Positions 2,278 through 12,673 of a DNA stretch of 64,000 nt are shown here, piece after piece (within the stretch, counting starts at the first letter, position 1; each line of letters opens with the position of its first letter). The stretch spans positions 1 through 64,000 of the forward strand of contig NZ_JACIVI010000008.1 in assembly GCF_014145335.1 (NCBI RefSeq). Direction: 5' to 3'. Both the position numbers and the translations under genes were made by a program. The notes under the pieces were generated by a model. That model saw only the letters and a list, made by a program, of their open reading frames with translations, did not search any database and was not told the DNA's origin. This stretch comes from Aquariibacter albus (GTDB taxonomy: Bacteria > Pseudomonadota > Gammaproteobacteria > Burkholderiales > Burkholderiaceae_C).

Positions 2278-2802
2278 TCAGTCGAGCTGCGCGTCCAGCA
2301 CCCGCGCCTTGTGCCGGTAGTGGCGGGCCGAGGCCTTGCGGCCCGCCAGGCGATGCCCTTCGGCCTCGGCCCGCGCCGCGGCGGCGGCCTCGGCGAAGGC
2401 CTCGATCAGGGTGTTGCGCTCGACCGGCTCGACCCGCCGGCCCTGGTCGAAGCGGCCGGCCACCCAGCCTTCGTTCGGCCGCTCGATCACGCCCAGCACG
2501 GCCTGGCCTCCCGCCAGGCGGCCGAGGTAGAGGTGGACCGCACCGTCCGCCGCCTGCAGGCGCAGCACGCCCAGGCCTTCGGCCCGGCCGCCGGCACAGG
2601 GGCCCGACCAGCGCGGGCGTCCGCCATCGGGCAGCTCCTCGGGCAGCGTGAAGCGGCAGTGGGGCGGCCCGGCTTCGCGGGCCGGGCGGGGCGCGCCACC
2701 CTCGGCTGCGCCAGCTGCCGTCGCCGCCGCGATGAGCAGGGCCGCGAGGCCCCGCGCCGCCCGGCGGTCGCGCGTCTGCGGGGTCGCCGCTGCGCGGCTC
2801 AC
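2278..2802 (-). CDS. secreted hypothetical protein, translationally coupled to the M15 peptidase
   Basis: A 174-residue product starting at GTG 2802, which overlaps the upstream stop codon (GTGA). The N-terminus has an Arg-rich stretch and then GLAALLIAAATAAGAAEG, a probable signal peptide. The mature part contains short repeated beta-rich segments resembling MORN repeats (AEGLGVLRLQ, VHLYLGRLAGGQAVLGVI, NEGWVAGRFDQGRRV) and a charged Ala-rich C-terminal helix. No family is firmly recognised. Coupling to a peptidoglycan peptidase suggests an envelope role, but that is inference. Confidence 0.6.
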   Translation of the reverse strand: MSRAAATPQTRDRRAARGLAALLIAAATAAGAAEGGAPRPAREAGPPHCRFTLPEELPDGGRPRWSGPCAGGRAEGLGVLRLQAADGAVHLYLGRLAGGQAVLGVIERPNEGWVAGRFDQGRRVEPVERNTLIEAFAEAAAAARAEAEGHRLAGRKASARHYRHKARVLDAQLD

Positions 2803-3626
2803 CGCAGGGTGGGCGCCCAGGCGCGCACCAGCGACTCGCTGGCCTCGAAGTGCATGCCGTCTTCCTTGCCGAAGCTCACGCCCCAGTACCAGCCGTGGCG
2901 GTTGAAGATCGGTGCGATCTGCGTCAGCCCGAACTGCACGCGGCCATCGCCGTAGACATCGAGCACGCCGTTGAGCGTCAGGTCGATGGCCGTGCCCCAG
3001 GCGTGGTTGGAGATGCTGCTGCTCGATCCGCGCACCAGCCGGCAGCACAGCATGCCGGCCGTGCCCAGGGCCTGGTGGACGGCGGGCTGCTCGGCCTGGA
3101 TGTCGCGCATCACGGCCTTCAGGCTCAGCACGGCGGGCAGCAGGCCGGTGACGCGGAAGGGTCCGACGGTGTCGAGCACGATGTTGCGCCGCAGCTTGGG
3201 GTCGGTCGGCGGTTCGCACTGGCTGCTGTACTGGCCGCCGCGCGGGTCGCCCAACAGGCTCAGCATCAGCCCGTTGCGAACCGGCTTCAGCCCGGGGTTG
3301 ACCGTGCTGGCCGCCGGGATCGGCACGGTGCGGGTGACCGAGCTCGCGCCGGTGGCCGGCGTGGGCGGCACGCTGGCCTGGCCGCTGTAGGTGCCCGACA
3401 GGTGGGCCCAGCTGCGGCCGCCCGGGTCGATGCGGCCGTCGGGGCTGCGCATGAAGCCGGACTGGAAGTCCTCGATGGCGGCGATCGTGTTCGGCCCGCA
3501 GCGCCCGTCGGCATCGCCGACACGGGCGAAGCCGCGGGCCAGCAGCAGGTGCTGCACGGCCAGCACATCGGCACGAAGGTTGGGGGCGCCGCGGCCCACG
3601 GGCTGGGACAGGAGGACGGTCGGCAT
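2799..3626 (-). CDS. peptidoglycan-binding, M15-type peptidase (D-Ala-D-Ala carboxypeptidase-like)
   Basis: 275 residues. The N-terminal part (about 1-80) is a PG_binding_1-like module (DVLAVQHLLLARGF, RCGPNTIAAIEDFQSGF). The C-terminal part (about 150-275) resembles zinc peptidases of family M15: HAWGTAIDLT supplies the first His and Asp ligands, and GMHFEASE near the end supplies the last His. Such enzymes cut peptidoglycan stem peptides. No typical signal peptide is seen, which is odd for a wall enzyme; it may be released by another route, or act like phage or T6SS endolysins. The next gene starts within its stop codon. Confidence 0.78.
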   Translation of the reverse strand: MPTVLLSQPVGRGAPNLRADVLAVQHLLLARGFARVGDADGRCGPNTIAAIEDFQSGFMRSPDGRIDPGGRSWAHLSGTYSGQASVPPTPATGASSVTRTVPIPAASTVNPGLKPVRNGLMLSLLGDPRGGQYSSQCEPPTDPKLRRNIVLDTVGPFRVTGLLPAVLSLKAVMRDIQAEQPAVHQALGTAGMLCCRLVRGSSSSISNHAWGTAIDLTLNGVLDVYGDGRVQFGLTQIAPIFNRHGWYWGVSFGKEDGMHFEASESLVRAWAPTLR

Positions 3627-3821
3627 GGTCGCGACTCCGCTGGAGGGGGTCGGGCCAATCTACGGCGGCCCGGGCCGCCTGCCAAGCCGTCTTGCGGGCG
3701 ACTTGCCAGGCCCCGGGCGCAAGGCGGGGTGCACGCCGGCCAGGCTTCCGCGCATTCCTGCCGGATCCGCCCGCGGCCGTCGGCCGGCGGCCACCCGGCG
3801 GCCCCGCCGAGGGCCTAGAGT

Positions 3822-3916
3822 GGGGCCTGGCAAACCGGCGCGAAAGCCCGGGACGCAAAGCCTCCGGCCTGTCGTCCGTCCCCGAGGGGACGGGCCACGG
3901 TAGCGGGGTTGCCGGT
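3822..3916 (+). promoter_or_regulatory. cyclic-di-GMP-I (GEMM-I) riboswitch
   Basis: The leader of the subtilase gene matches the GEMM-I consensus in order. GGCAAACC (3829-3836) is followed by P2 CCGGCGC-GAAA-GCCCGG with the conserved GAAA tetraloop (3842-3845). Next come the invariant GACGCAAAGCC (3852-3862) and TCCGGCCT, a long P3 with a strong CCGTCCCC/GGGGACGG stem, and finally GGTAGCGGGGTTGCC (3899-3913). The outer helix P1 pairs GGCAA (3829-3833) with TTGCC (3909-3913). The core is close to the well-known Vibrio cholerae Vc2 aptamer. It should bind c-di-GMP and control the protease immediately downstream. Confidence 0.94.
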
Positions 3917-3958
3917 CCGGGTCCGTCAAGCCCGGCCGGTCTCTTCCTTCAGGAGACC
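3917..3958 (+). promoter_or_regulatory. putative expression platform hiding the ribosome binding site
   Basis: Between the aptamer and the ATG at 3963 are two hairpins: CCGGG/CCCGG (3917-3921 with 3931-3935) and GGTCTC/GAGACC (3938-3943 with 3953-3958). The second buries the Shine-Dalgarno AGGAG at 3951-3955. There is no U tract, so control is more likely at translation than at transcription termination. The direction of the response (on or off with c-di-GMP) cannot be read from sequence. Confidence 0.65.
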
Positions 3959-3962
3959 TGCG

Positions 3963-5537
3963 ATGCAATCCATCCCCCGGGGCCGTACGCGGCCCCTTCT
4001 TCGCGTGGTCGCCGCGCTGCTGCTGGCCGCCGCGCCCGCCCTGCGCGCCGAGACGGCGGTGCTGATCCCGGAAGAAGTGGCGCGTGGCGAACTGCCGATG
4101 CCGCCGCGCGCTCCGGTCACGGCCGGGGCGGCGGCCTCCGGTCAGGCCCGCTACATCGTCACCCTGCGCCGCGGCAGCGCCGAGGCGCCGGCCGATTCGG
4201 AGCGCCTGGTGCGCGGCCAGGCCGGCCGCATTCGCCAGCACTTCGGCCGTGCCTTGCGGGGCTACAGCGCCGAGGTGCCGGTCGGCCGCTCGCAGGCCTT
4301 CATCGAAGCGCTGCGCCGCAACCCGGAGGTGCTGGCCGTCGAGCTCGACCAGCCCGTGCGGCTGCGCCAGACCATCCAGTCCGCCGCCCCCTGGGGCCTG
4401 GACCGTAGCGACCAGCGCACGCTGCCGCTGTCGGGCGCCTTCACCTACCTCCGCAGCGGCCAGGGCGTGCGGGCCTACATCGTCGACACCGGCATCCTTG
4501 CCAGCCACCAGGACTTCGGCGGCCGCGTCGCCGAGGGCTACAGCACGGTGGCCGATGCGAACGGCAGCAGCGATTGCAACGGCCACGGCACCCATGTGGC
4601 CGGCATCGTCGGCGGCACGACCTGGGGCGTGGCCAAGGCCGTCAGCCTGGTGCCGGTGCGGGTGCTGGACTGCAATGGCGCGGGCATGAGCAGCGGCGTG
4701 ATCGCGGGCCTGGAATGGATCCTGGCGCATGGGGTCAAGCCGGCGGTGGTCAACCTCTCGCTCGGCGGGGGCGTGTCGCCCGCCATGGACGCCGCGGTGG
4801 CCCGTCTGGTCGCCGAGGGCTATGCCGTCGTCGTGGCCGCGGGCAACAGCGGGGCCGACGCCTGTGGCAGCTCGCCGGGCCGCGAGCCCTCGGTGCTGAC
4901 GGTCGGCGCGAGCACCGCGAGCGATGAACGCGCCAGCTATTCGAACTTCGGCCGCTGCGTCGACCTGTTCGCGCCCGGCAGCAGCATCCGCTCCGCCTAC
5001 GGCACCGGACCGACGGCCACCGCCACCATGAGCGGCACCTCGATGGCGGCCCCGCATGTGAGCGGTGCCCTGGCCCTGCTGCTGCAGCGCGCGCCCACGG
5101 CCACACCGGCCCAGCTCGCCACCACGCTCAAGGCGGAGGCCACCAGCGGCAAGCTCAAGACCGTCGGCACCGCATCGCCGAACCTGCTGCTGTTCAGCGC
5201 CATCGCCAGCTCGCCGATTCCGCGCAGCAGCGCGGTGGATGCGCTCAGCGGCAGCGCCGCGGCCTCGGGCTCGGCGGCCTGGCTCGCCACCGTCCAGGTG
5301 GTGGTGCGGGACCAGGACGGCGCCTACCTGCCGAAGGTCAGCGTCAAGGGCAGCTTCAGCAGCGGCGGCAGCGCGTCCTGCGTGACGGGCAGCACCGGCG
5401 TGTGCAGCCTGAAGTCCCCGAAGATCAAGAAGGCCGTGGCCTCGACGACCTTCCGCCTCGACGGCCTGAGCGGCGGCGGCGTGGTCTACGACGCGGCGCG
5501 CAACCGCAGCACCGAGCTCAGCCTGGCGCGACCCTGA
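3963..5537 (+). CDS. secreted subtilisin-like serine protease (S8, proteinase K type)
   Basis: 524 residues, start chosen by AGGAG 7 nt upstream. A signal peptide ([19 protein letters not shown], to about residue 29) is followed by an inhibitor I9 propeptide (about 60-135) and a peptidase S8 domain (about 150-425). The catalytic triad is visible: Asp175 (YIVDTG), His208 (NGHGTHVAG) and Ser360 ([12 protein letters not shown]), with oxyanion Asn304 (AAGNSG). A C-terminal region of about 90 residues resembles a beta-sandwich export or binding domain. It would be secreted and degrade extracellular or matrix proteins. Its leader is a c-di-GMP riboswitch, so synthesis is tied to the motile/sessile switch. 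Confidence 0.95.
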
Positions 5538-8673: not shown

Positions 8674-8794
8674 GGCCGGCTCCCGGCGGCCGGCCGGCGC
8701 AGCGCGGGACTGCTTTTTGCTCCGGTCGGTCAACGCCCCTCCCCTGGCCGGCGTTGCCCCAGGGTCCGATCCGGACCGCCGTCTTCCCTGCACC

Positions 8795-9787
8795 GTGTCC
8801 CTGCCCGCCCGTTCGCCGCAGCCCCACCTGAGCATCGTCGTGCCGGCCTACAACGAGGCCGGCAACATCCGCGGCACGCTGCAGACCGTCGCCGAAGCCT
8901 GCGAAGCCCTCGGCCTGCCCTGGGACATCCTGGTGGTCGACGACGGCAGCGCCGATGCCACCGCGGCCGAGGTGGCCGCCGTGCCCCCGGCCTGGCGGGT
9001 CGGTCTGCTTCGGCTGTCGCGCAACTTCGGCAAGGAGGCGGCGCTGACCGCGGGCCTGGACCACGCCCAGGGCGAGGTGGTCGTCTGCATGGATGGCGAC
9101 GGCCAGCATCCGGTCAGCCTGCTGCCGGCCCTGCTCGCGCACTGGCGCGAGGGCTACGACATGGTCTATGCCGTGCGCGAGGACCGCGACCGCGAATCTG
9201 CCTTCAAGCGCCTGGGCAGCCGCATCTTCTACGGCCTGATGAGTTCGACCGGCCAGATCGACATCCCCGCCAATGCGGGCGACTTCCGGCTCATGGACCG
9301 CCGCGTCGTCGAGGCCCTGCGGGCCCTGCCGGAGCGGCAGCGCTTCATGAAGGGCATCTATGCCTGGGTCGGTTTCCGCAGCCTCGGCCTGCCCTACACG
9401 CCCCTGGCCCGCGAGCATGGCCAGTCCAGCTTCTCGCGCCGCAAGCTGGCGCGGCTGGCCTGGACCGGCATCACCAGCTTCTCGGTGCTGCCGCTGCGGC
9501 TGGCCAGCCTGCTCGGCGTGATGTTGGCGCTGCCGGCCTTCGCCTACGGGCTCTACGAGCTGATCGAGAAGACGATCTACGGCAGCGACGTGCCCGGCTG
9601 GCCCACGGTGGTCGTCAGCATCATGTTCTTCTCGGGCGTGCAGCTGCTGTTCATCGGCGTGCTGGGCGAGTACCTGGCCCGGGTCTACGAGGAGGTCAAG
9701 GCGCGGCCGACCTACCTGATCGCCGAACGCCTGGCCCCGCCCCAGCCGGGCGCGGGGCCGGCCGAGGCCGGCCCCGCCGCGCGATGA
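8795..9787 (+). CDS. GT2 glycosyltransferase, GtrB/DPM1-like (undecaprenyl-phosphate sugar transferase)
   Basis: 330 residues from GTG 8795; a TTG at 8717 would add 26 residues, and neither has a clear ribosome binding site. A GT-A domain (about 10-220) carries LSIVVPAYNEAGNIRGTL, VVDDGSADAT and CMDGDGQHP, then two C-terminal transmembrane helices (about 235-300) as in GtrB/ArnC-type enzymes that put a sugar on undecaprenyl phosphate at the inner membrane. It overlaps the gtrA gene by 4 bp and opens a four-gene cassette with GtrA, a YdjC deacetylase and a GT39 transferase. Confidence 0.88.
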   Translation: MSLPARSPQPHLSIVVPAYNEAGNIRGTLQTVAEACEALGLPWDILVVDDGSADATAAEVAAVPPAWRVGLLRLSRNFGKEAALTAGLDHAQGEVVVCMDGDGQHPVSLLPALLAHWREGYDMVYAVREDRDRESAFKRLGSRIFYGLMSSTGQIDIPANAGDFRLMDRRVVEALRALPERQRFMKGIYAWVGFRSLGLPYTPLAREHGQSSFSRRKLARLAWTGITSFSVLPLRLASLLGVMLALPAFAYGLYELIEKTIYGSDVPGWPTVVVSIMFFSGVQLLFIGVLGEYLARVYEEVKARPTYLIAERLAPPQPGAGPAEAGPAAR

Positions 9788-10200
9788 GCGGCTTCGCCCC
9801 CGCCGGCCGCGCGCAGCCGGCCCCCTGGCGTCGCGCGGGCCTGGCCTTCGTCGCCGTGGGCGCCGCCGCCGCCGCGCTGCACTACCTGCTGACGCTGCTG
9901 CTGGCCGGCCCCTTCGGCCTGGCGCCGGCCGTGGCCAACACGGCCGGCTTTCTGGCGGCCTTCCCGCTGAGCTATCTCGGGCATCGCCACCTGAGCTTCG
10001 CCGACCGGCCCGCGCCGCACCGCCAGGCCCTGCCGCGGCTGCTGCTGGTCAGCCTGACGGCCTTCGCCAGCAACCAGCTGCTGCTCGACGCGCTGCTGCG
10101 CCTGACACCGCTGCCGCTGTGGCTGGCCCTGGGTCTGGTGCTGGTCGGGGTGGCGCTGGGCACCTTCCTGGCCGGCCGCTGCTGGGCCTTCGCGGCATGA
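9784..10200 (+). CDS. GtrA-family membrane protein
   Basis: 138 residues with four hydrophobic helices (about 18-40, 45-65, 82-100, 110-135) and the GtrA signature NTAGFLAAFPLSYLGHRHLS plus FLAGRCWAF at the end. GtrA proteins are thought to flip undecaprenyl-phosphate sugars made by the partner GtrB-type transferase. Start ATG overlaps the upstream stop (ATGA), and its own stop overlaps the next start, so the cassette is translationally coupled. Confidence 0.88.
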   Translation: MSGFAPAGRAQPAPWRRAGLAFVAVGAAAAALHYLLTLLLAGPFGLAPAVANTAGFLAAFPLSYLGHRHLSFADRPAPHRQALPRLLLVSLTAFASNQLLLDALLRLTPLPLWLALGLVLVGVALGTFLAGRCWAFAA

Positions 10201-11009
10201 CGGTTGCGCTGATCGCCTGCGCGGACGACTACGCGCTGAACCCCGCCGTGGACGAGGCCATCCTGGCCCTGATCGACGCCGGCCGCCTCAGCGCCACCAG
10301 CTGCATGACCCTGTCGCCGCGCTGGCCCGAGGCGGCCCGCGCGCTGGGTCCGGCCCGGCGCGCGGCCGCCGACATCGGCCTGCACCTGGACCTCACCGCC
10401 TTCGACAGCCCCGAGCTGCCCGCCCGGCCGCTCGGCCGCGTGATCCTCCGCAGCCTGCTGCGCGCCTGGCCCCGCGAGCGGCTGATGCGCCACCTGCAGC
10501 GCCAGTTCGAGGCCTTCGAGGCGGCGCTGGGTGTTCCGCCCGACCATGTCGATGGCCACCAGCACATCCAGCAGCTGCCGCAGCTGCGCGAGCTGCTGGC
10601 CGAGCTGCTCGCGCGTCGCTATCCCGCCGGTGCCATGCCCTGGCTGCGGGTGAGCCGCATCGCTGCCAGCCCGGGCCTCAAGCCGCGGGTGATCAGCGCG
10701 CTCGGGGCCGGGCCCTTTGCGCGCGCGCAGCGCGGCCCGCTGAGCCGCCGCGTGCTGGGCAGCCACGGCTTCGACCTGGGCCCGGTGGACTACGCCCGCG
10801 CGATGGACCGCTGGCTGGCGGCAGCCCGGTCTGGCGATGTGCTGATGGTCCATCCCGCCACCCGGGCCGAACCCGGCGATTCGATCGGCCCGGCCCGGGT
10901 GATCGAGCACGCCCACCTGGCCGGCAGCTTCTTCCCCGCGGCCCTGCGCCGCCACGGTTGCGTGCTGGCCCGCGGGCACCTCGCGCTGGCCGCGGGCCGT
11001 TCCCGCTGA
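10197..11009 (+). CDS. YdjC/ChbG-family carbohydrate deacetylase
   Basis: 270 residues from ATG 10197 (ATGA overlap with gtrA). The YdjC signatures are present: ACADDYALNPAVDEAIL with the metal-site Asp pair, LHLDLTAF, HVDGHQHIQ with metal-binding His, and MVHPA near the end. Family members are metal-dependent deacetylases of acetylated sugars. Within a GtrA/GtrB/GT39 cassette the likely substrate is an N-acetyl sugar on undecaprenyl phosphate, to be passed to the GT39 enzyme downstream; this role is inferred. Confidence 0.85.
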   Translation: MTVALIACADDYALNPAVDEAILALIDAGRLSATSCMTLSPRWPEAARALGPARRAAADIGLHLDLTAFDSPELPARPLGRVILRSLLRAWPRERLMRHLQRQFEAFEAALGVPPDHVDGHQHIQQLPQLRELLAELLARRYPAGAMPWLRVSRIAASPGLKPRVISALGAGPFARAQRGPLSRRVLGSHGFDLGPVDYARAMDRWLAAARSGDVLMVHPATRAEPGDSIGPARVIEHAHLAGSFFPAALRRHGCVLARGHLALAAGRSR

Positions 11010-11062
11010 GCCCCGCCCCTGTCCTCCCCGCCCTCCCCGCGTCCGTGACCGAGCCTTCCCTC

Positions 11063-12673
11063 ATGCGCCGCTGGCATGCACTGAGCCTGGCGCTGGCCGC
11101 CGCCCTGCTGCTCCACATCGCCTGCAGCCACGGGCTGCACGGCCTGTCCAACGACGAGGAGGTGCAGCATGTCTACGGCCGGCTGCTGCTGGACTTCTAC
11201 GCCTCGGGCTTCGAGGACCGGGCGGCCTTCGCCTACCGCAATCTCTACCTCTACGGTGGCTTCTTCGACCTGATCGCCGCCGGGCTGGAGCGCCTGGGCT
11301 GGGCCGGCACGTCCGTCTGGGACCTGCGCCACCTGCTGTCGGCCGGCTTCGGCTTCGTCGGCATCGTCTACGCGGCCCTGCTGGCCCGGCGCATCGGCGG
11401 CCCACGCGCCGGCTTCCTGGCCGCCCTGCTGCTCAGCCTGACCGGCGCCTGGAGCGGCGCGATGTTCACCCACACCAAGGACGTGCCCTTCGGCGCCGCG
11501 ATGGCTGCCGGCCTCTACCACGGCAGCGCCTGGCTGGCCGCGCTGCCCGCCCCGCCCTGGCGCCACCGCATCGGCCTGGGCCTGGCGCTGGGCGCGGCAC
11601 TGGGCCTGCGCGTCGGCGGGGTCTTTCTCGGCTTCTACCTGGCGGCCGGTCTGCTGGCCCTGGCCTGGGCGGCCGAGGGCGGGCCCCGGGCCCGGTGGAT
11701 CGTCCTGGGGCGCGGCCTGCTCGCCGGGCTGCCCAGCCTCGCGCTCGGGCTCGCCTTGATGGCGCTGGCCTGGCCCTGGTCGGTGATGGGCCCCGACCAT
11801 GTGTTGCAGGCGGCGCGGGCGTTCTCGCACTTCGCCTTCGACCTGTGGACCGTGCTGGACGGCCAGGCCTACCGCATCGCCGAGGTGCCGCGCAGCTACC
11901 TGCTGCACTACCTGGCCGTCCGCCTGCCCGAGGGGCTGCTGCTCGGCCTGCTGGCGGCCCTGCTGCTCGGGGGCGCGGCCGGGCTGCGCGCGCTGCGTGC
12001 CGGCCCGGCCGGCCGGCGGCGGCTGGCGCTCGTCCTGCCCTTGATCCTGGCGGCGAGCTTTCCGCTGTTCTTCACCTTGTTCACCGCGCCACCGCTCTAC
12101 AACGGCCTGCGCCATTTCACCTTCGTGCTGCCGCCGCTCGCGGTTTGCGCGGGGCTGGGCCTGGACGCGCTCGGGCGACGCATGGCGCCTGCCCCGAAGC
12201 TGCTGCGCGCGGGGTTCGGGCTGGCCCTGCTCCTGTTGCTGCTCGATCCGGCCTGGCAGCTGCTGCGGCTGCACCCCTACCAGTCGGTGGCCTACAACCA
12301 CCTGATCGGCCCCCTGGCCGGTGCCGAGCGCCGCTGGGAGATGGACTACTGGGGCGACAGCCTGCGCGAGGCGGCCACGGCACTGAACGCGCGGCTGGCG
12401 GCCGAGGGGCCGCCGCCGGCCCAGCCGTACAAGGCGGCCGTCTGTGCCGAACTGATCCAGGGCGAGGCGGTGCTGGACCGGCGCTACTTCGTGGTGACCC
12501 GGGACTGGCTCTCCGCCGATTTCTTCCTGTCGCCCACCCAGACCGGCTGCGACGCCGCCCTTCAGGGCGAGGTGATCGAGCGCGTGCAGCGCCTGGGCGC
12601 CACCCTGGCCGTGGTCAAGGACCGGCGGGGCCTGCCCCCGTCGGCCCGGGCGCCCCGCCCCCCGCCGCCCTGA
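11063..12673 (+). CDS. GT39/ArnT-like membrane glycosyltransferase
   Basis: 536 residues with about ten transmembrane helices. The first periplasmic loop has the acidic GLSNDEEVQHVYG motif expected of GT-C (PMT/ArnT) enzymes, and THTKDVPFGAA matches the second loop signature. These enzymes transfer a sugar from undecaprenyl phosphate to a lipid or protein acceptor in the periplasm. A soluble C-terminal region (about 425-520) follows. A GTG at 11045 could be an earlier start. The gene ends the GtrB-GtrA-YdjC cassette, suggesting transfer of a deacetylated sugar to LPS or another envelope acceptor. Confidence 0.85.
   Translation: MRRWHALSLALAAALLLHIACSHGLHGLSNDEEVQHVYGRLLLDFYASGFEDRAAFAYRNLYLYGGFFDLIAAGLERLGWAGTSVWDLRHLLSAGFGFVGIVYAALLARRIGGPRAGFLAALLLSLTGAWSGAMFTHTKDVPFGAAMAAGLYHGSAWLAALPAPPWRHRIGLGLALGAALGLRVGGVFLGFYLAAGLLALAWAAEGGPRARWIVLGRGLLAGLPSLALGLALMALAWPWSVMGPDHVLQAARAFSHFAFDLWTVLDGQAYRIAEVPRSYLLHYLAVRLPEGLLLGLLAALLLGGAAGLRALRAGPAGRRRLALVLPLILAASFPLFFTLFTAPPLYNGLRHFTFVLPPLAVCAGLGLDALGRRMAPAPKLLRAGFGLALLLLLLDPAWQLLRLHPYQSVAYNHLIGPLAGAERRWEMDYWGDSLREAATALNARLAAEGPPPAQPYKAAVCAELIQGEAVLDRRYFVVTRDWLSADFFLSPTQTGCDAALQGEVIERVQRLGATLAVVKDRRGLPPSARAPRPPPP

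Follow-up and report, generated by a model that had tools for sequence, protein, structure and literature searches.

The window, by which we mean the whole 64,000-nucleotide stretch of Aquariibacter albus DNA analysed here, carries a c-di-GMP-I (GEMM-I) aptamer upstream of a predicted S8 protease gene (Table 1). Using cmscan and Rfam 15, RF01051 was matched over its full length (model positions 1-87), scoring 57.5 bits where the gathering cut-off is 35 (E 1.3e-8), and this was the sole RF01051 match with E <= 0.001 in the 3.31-Mb genome. In a sibling species, the one genus-mate covered by the analysis, an element scoring 60 bits occupies the corresponding position, before a protease 84% identical to that of the window. 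An earlier note on this DNA had called a GEMM-I element by eye, and the Infernal run bore out both the call and its blocks: GGCAAACC from 3829, the GAAA tetraloop, GACGCAAAGCC and GGTAGCGGGGTTGCC. The displayed part of the Rfam alignment marks no non-standard pairs in P2 and P3, and the aptamer helices covary across 40 relatives.

Table 1 Coordinates of the riboswitch leader and its target gene in the window
Feature	Position	Strand	Basis or remark
-10-like TAGAGT	3816-3821	+	ends 7 nt before G20 (sibling: 8 nt before G20)
c-di-GMP-I (GEMM-I) aptamer, RF01051	3819-3916	+	cmscan, 57.5 bits
G20-equivalent	3829	+	column 11 of the family aptamer alignment; Vc2 numbering as in the excerpt of PMC3764141
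P2 GAAA (GNRA) tetraloop	3842-3845	+	sequence, Rfam alignment
A47-equivalent	3857	+	Vc2 numbering as in the excerpt of PMC3764141
Distal P3 stem, CCGTCCCC/GGGGACGG	3876-3893	+	changes in sibling look compensatory (read from alignment)
C92-equivalent	3912	+	ligand contact and second base of hairpin A; numbering as in the excerpt of PMC3764141, register based in part on the Vc2 sequence
Hairpin A, GCCGG-(T)-CCGGG 3911-3921 with CCCGGCCGGT 3931-3940	3911-3940	+	folding, alignment
Hairpin B, GGTCTC 3938-3943 with GAGACC 3953-3958	3938-3958	+	masks Shine-Dalgarno; overlaps A at 3938-3940
Shine-Dalgarno AGGAG (sibling: TGGAG)	3951-3955	+	sequence
S8 (proteinase-K-like) protease, 524 aa	3963-5537	+	Pfam, structure match, sequence reading

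The ligand of Vc2-type aptamers is contacted by G20, A47 and C92 (excerpts of PMC4744006 and PMC3764141). All three contact bases are kept in the window (3829 G, 3857 A, 3912 C), and because of this c-di-GMP would be the expected ligand. The register that sets C92 at 3912 leans in part on the Vc2 sequence. GEMM-Ib riboswitches carry A at position 20; the G found here points to c-di-GMP and not to cGAMP, and cGAMP specificity of the window element was ruled out on this base. The 3',3'-cGAMP-binding GEMM-Ib riboswitches of Geobacter belong to the same aptamer family (excerpt of PMC6456294) but differ from the window element with its G at position 20, and a G20A GEMM-I mutant is described as binding cGAMP (excerpt of PMC6274999). 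Eleven GGDEF matches in the A. albus genome, two of them perhaps pieces of one gene, make production of c-di-GMP plausible.

The ATG start codon of the protease gene lies 46 nt past the end of the RF01051 match, and the target had been named correctly in the earlier note: a subtilase with a signal peptide (assigned by eye) follows the element, and the gene upstream is divergent. The protein further contains an I9 propeptide, and its S8 domain (PF00082, E 2.5e-42) has the catalytic residues D175, H208 and S360 together with N295. Its catalytic domain (approximately residues 137-413) matched the structures 8c4z (E 2.2e-104) and Aqualysin-1 (4dzt, E 4.1e-98), and among solved structures the protease appears closest to proteinase-K-like enzymes. 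It is like these in catalytic domain and I9 propeptide, but adds about 110 C-terminal residues, with a Big_1 match under the cut-off, and a riboswitch leader. The genome holds one further S8 match besides this protease. It also encodes a GspE over its cut-off, so that, with the GGDEF matches, the genome has the means for making the signal as well as a candidate export route; the protease may be exported through a type II system.

The earlier note had also placed the gene next to an exopolysaccharide locus, which did not hold: a response regulator, a CHASE histidine kinase and a stretch of about 4 kb intervene, and clear polysaccharide genes (glycosyltransferases, GDP-mannose dehydratase, Bac_transf and Poly_export) are found at about 18-40 kb. 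The exopolysaccharide link of the protease is loose, and the c-di-GMP-controlled matrix remodelling that the note had suggested can only be conjectured. A 20-kb syntenic stretch of the sibling species keeps the protease, the response regulator and the CHASE kinase, and within it no match was found to the divergent gene or to 8.7-12.7 kb. The divergent gene (2799-3626) encodes peptidoglycan-binding and M15 peptidase domains. The second region (8717-12673) carries GT2, GtrA, YdjC and a membrane glycosyltransferase-like gene, and its lack of a match in the syntenic stretch implies that about 4 kb were gained or lost. A short frame at 303-569 resembles the start of an IS3-type transposase.

c-di-GMP-I elements and S8 proteases in Burkholderiaceae_C

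A search of 399 genomes of the family with RF01051 found the element in 115. Among the matches listed, 149 loci were read, one at a contig edge (G341:C158) being left out; 136 of these gave a usable downstream frame and 13 gave none, the downstream gene being picked from its G+C by codon position and trimmed to 370 aa. Peptidase_S8 was the commonest Pfam family behind the elements (42/136 genes, among the matches listed); next came the fervidolysin prodomain with 7 genes, likewise part of a protease, and PAS_4 with 6, and GGDEF had 4. The expectation in the earlier note that GEMM-I targets are usually motility, pili or c-di-GMP enzymes does not describe this lineage. By a local profile the S8 count is 43, one being a weak duplicate (L152b), and these 43 S8-linked elements span 21 genera. 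Outside the family, no S8 frame was found behind any of the 65 c-di-GMP-I matches listed from 398 genomes across the phylum (28 + 37 loci, two of the 37 under the cut-off); as a positive control, a like script recovered 9 S8 genes at 32 family loci. On these counts, 42/136 within the family against 0/65 outside, the S8/c-di-GMP-I association is a lineage trait, and its occurrence in the window is therefore no surprise.

At one family locus (L152, G257:C1:433801-439000) two GEMM-I leaders, alike where printed, lie 2.4 kb apart with an S8-like coding sequence behind each; the first frame behind the second leader is short (162 aa).

Starting from the protein, we found the element adjoining the gene in one (L104) of the best 80 of 507 S8 relatives and about 4 kb from the gene in another of these 80 (L134, 46.5 bits), three hits under 18 bits being ignored. 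It was present at 6 of 30 family S8 loci, window and sibling counted in and three hits under 16 bits ignored. In a tree of 64 S8 domains, built by a quick method and leaving out L152b and L104, the window and sibling proteases group with riboswitch-free proteases, at a distance from the main clades that carry the element. This tree requires at least three changes for having the element and two for the hairpin platform described below, a number of gains that comes from a biased sample, the element-free rows being only relatives of the window protein.

Position 20, which was read by pattern, is C in 11 of the 43 S8-linked elements (28 G, 4 unread) and in none of the 92 readable among 106 other elements (90 G, 2 A, 14 unread). 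The C20 elements (L026 1501-1587, L146, L147, L153, L167, L169, L173, L174, L175, L203 and L237) cover five genera and require at least four state changes on the S8 tree. Because mutation of G20 in Vc2 cut binding 30,000-fold (excerpt of PMC4744006), these elements may have a different ligand or geometry. An A at this position, like that of the cGAMP-binding GEMM-I mutant (excerpt of PMC6274999), was seen in L143 201-287 and in L207; an Lcl_C-domain protein is encoded behind L143, whose leader also has the overlapping hairpins.

Two overlapping hairpins between aptamer and start codon

The leader downstream of the aptamer core contains two hairpins, A and B. Hairpin A needs a one-base bulge in the window; hairpin B covers most of AGGAG and is lengthened by two pairs in the fold. 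Their arms share two to three bases, and the outermost pairs of A use G91, C92 and C93, so that C92, a ligand contact, would also take the 5' arm of B. Over the 51 nt of 3912-3962 the window and its sibling differ at two sites, one in the loop of A and one (3951) at the edge of the loop of B (binomial P 0.01 at 15.5% divergence). No terminator-like site was found at 3600-4100, and a transcription terminator was rejected as the platform.

An automatic scan found the A/B overlap in 15/43 S8 leaders and in 4 of 100 others, these being taken from the 106 other elements, where dinucleotide shuffles gave an expectation of 0.04 and 0.24, respectively, and plain shuffles one of 0.07 for each set. By the same scan it is absent from 28/43 S8 leaders. 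The 15 leaders belong to 8 genera; with four more recognised by eye, 19 S8 leaders of 9 genera, chosen because the pattern was seen by eye, make up the platform set used below. Two of the four non-S8 leaders with the overlap precede Lcl_C-domain proteins, and the tested frames behind the other two had no Pfam match. The Acidovorax MAG contig L104, fetched by protein similarity alone, has an aptamer scoring 93 bits with a model built from 40 family aptamers, and before its S8 gene an overlapping hairpin B (GGCCTCT/AGAGGCC); three GCC registers were tried here, and the overlap occurs in the one that follows the GGGG block in the manner of the aptamer.

Covariation was assessed in 16 of the 19 platform leaders, leaving out L172, L188 and L258 with their longer A, in an alignment in which L167 is displaced by one. 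For hairpin A, pairing extended to 91.6% of cells (shuffled 78.6), and both sides had changed in 6/9 pairs (shuffled 3.9; 21/500 as high) and 20 cells (shuffled 6.8; 0/500). The corresponding values for hairpin B were 96.9% (shuffled 91.2), 3/6 pairs (shuffled 0.7; 1/500) and 5 cells (shuffled 0.8; 0/500), the window contributing one compensatory change from C-G to U-A; these shuffles ignore the relatedness of the leaders. When the partner strand was slid by one to three bases, the pairing of both hairpins collapsed. Further pair types were ordinary (A 14 vs 11.5 shuffled, 44/500; B 3 vs 2.7, 280/500). Covariation thus supports each hairpin but not their exchange: because the shared bases (GCC/GGC) hardly vary, the exchange of A and B can only be deduced from their overlap.

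The two arrangements, A extended with B shortened and A short with B full, differ by at most 0.4 kcal/mol in 18/19 platform leaders (0.4 in the window; 1.9 in L201). Blocking G91 and C92, a crude proxy for bound ligand, made the Shine-Dalgarno sequence harder to open: in the window the cost rose from 4.9 to 8.6 kcal/mol, and across 19/19 leaders the increase was 3.5-5.6 kcal/mol. An OFF state is therefore predicted at high c-di-GMP, a polarity on which the earlier note had been silent. In the ligand-free fold of the whole leader the Shine-Dalgarno sequence is paired (over 0.94) in both the window species and the sibling, and 4.9 kcal/mol is still needed to open it when C92 is left free. The gene could therefore be weak in both states, with an ON state that is maybe modest.

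The P1 helix, present in Vc2 and unpaired in the Rfam model, is doubtful in the window, where it appears weak or absent. The earlier note had reported a matching P1, and it is true that GGGCC at 3823-3827 could pair with GGTCC at 3914-3918, but this possible helix of 5 bp shrinks to 3 bp in the sibling, and P1 complementarity in the 19 platform leaders was no better than in shuffles (mean score 5.96 vs 6.83). It was above shuffles in 24 other S8 leaders (6.48 vs 4.6) and hardly so in 92 non-S8 leaders (4.91 vs 4.76). Switching driven by P1 is thus unsupported in the platform leaders, whereas complementarity exceeds shuffles in the 24 others. If the TAGAGT hexamer upstream were a promoter, the transcript would start at about G20 in the pocket and leave little room for a P1 strand, which the inner stem of hairpin A would then replace; a 5-bp P1 could form if transcription begins further upstream. 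The best -35 for TAGAGT has 1/6 matches in the window and 3/6 in the sibling, neither being convincing, and a promoter search found no sigma-70-type promoter on the + strand. Similar -10-like hexamers occur 7-26 nt upstream of position 20 in 18/19 platform leaders, as found with a loose pattern and without a shuffle control.

Proposed control of protease synthesis and its alternatives

Taken together, we propose, with a probability of roughly 0.7, that the c-di-GMP-I riboswitch governs translation of the secreted proteinase-K-like enzyme and that its polarity is most likely OFF. When ligand is absent, G91, C92 and C93 would pair with the first bases of the 5' arm of B, lengthening A and shortening B, and the Shine-Dalgarno sequence would open more easily. 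When c-di-GMP is bound, the ligand would take C92, the shared bases would go back to B, and B would close on the Shine-Dalgarno sequence, turning the protease off. Positions 3822-3827 could also pair with 3938-3943, as judged by eye, which would again predict an OFF state. Protease would accordingly be made as c-di-GMP falls, which would fit a dispersal or surface-release protease and, with it, a possible role in biofilms.

The opposite polarity, in which the same aptamer would expose the Shine-Dalgarno sequence on binding and protease would be made in the matrix-building, high-c-di-GMP state, is the reading nearest to the matrix idea of the earlier note, and we regard it as rather unlikely. 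Class I elements are known with either polarity, the two of V. cholerae acting oppositely and without termination (excerpt of PMC6366702), and both the possible 5-bp P1 and the pairing of the Shine-Dalgarno sequence in the ligand-free fold would suit an ON switch. Against this, occupied G91 and C92 raise the opening cost in each of the 19 leaders, and a non-systematic look brought up no pairing by which binding would expose the Shine-Dalgarno sequence. That the chief effect of the aptamer is on transcription or mRNA stability, for example through access of Rho or RNase, with A and B being secondary, seems improbable to us given that B covers the Shine-Dalgarno sequence and covaries and that the leader has no terminator-like site, even though riboswitches with several levels of control have been reported (excerpt of PMC11218506).

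We consider it very improbable that the element is a decayed or non-responding relic. Its 57.5 bits are lowish among the family matches listed (best 88.1), and an intact-looking GEMM-I element can stay unresponsive, as Bc1 does (excerpt of PMC11218506). The aptamer core and platform arms are nevertheless almost unchanged in two species whose upstream flanks differ, the P3 changes between window and sibling look compensatory, and the state of the element changes at least three times on the sampled S8 tree. According to the excerpts of PMC4744006 and PMC11218506, Bc1 of B. thuringiensis showed no response to c-di-GMP and Vc1 bound it weakly.

A secreted protease under class I c-di-GMP control has a precedent in ZmpI of C. 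difficile (PPEP-1, CD630_28300), which releases surface proteins and is repressed by c-di-GMP through a class I riboswitch (excerpt of PMC6366702). That system resembles the window in having such a riboswitch before a protease gene, but ZmpI is a metalloprotease and its riboswitch a transcription-terminating OFF switch, as are the remaining functional class I riboswitches of the species (same excerpt), whereas the window combines an S8 serine protease with a platform that masks the Shine-Dalgarno sequence. With Vc2 and Vc1 of V. cholerae the window element shares the aptamer fold and contact bases (excerpts of PMC4744006 and PMC3764141), and these two act independently of termination (excerpt of PMC6366702). 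Vc2, however, has a P1 with a G14-C93 pair (excerpt of PMC3764141), where in the window P1 seems weak or lacking and G91-C92 form the start of hairpin A, and Vc1 serves gbpA (excerpt of PMC4744006). No record of a c-di-GMP-I element before an S8 protease, or of the A/B platform, was found in the literature searched, which lies mostly outside subscription journals.

More tentatively, and at somewhat less than even odds, the platform leaders may represent a P1-less class of c-di-GMP-I riboswitch with C92 as the switch base, working by an exchange of 2-3 bp balanced to about 0.4 kcal/mol, which was joined to S8 proteases on more than one occasion and would bring about release at low c-di-GMP across the lineage; its C20 subclass may sense another ligand. 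Such a compact, near-balanced platform, in which the switch base is also a ligand-contact base, could be probed with a few point mutants. The distribution of the elements suggests that the commonest recognisable c-di-GMP-I target in one large family is a secreted serine protease, and the S8 pairing would tie a biofilm signal directly to extracellular proteolysis.
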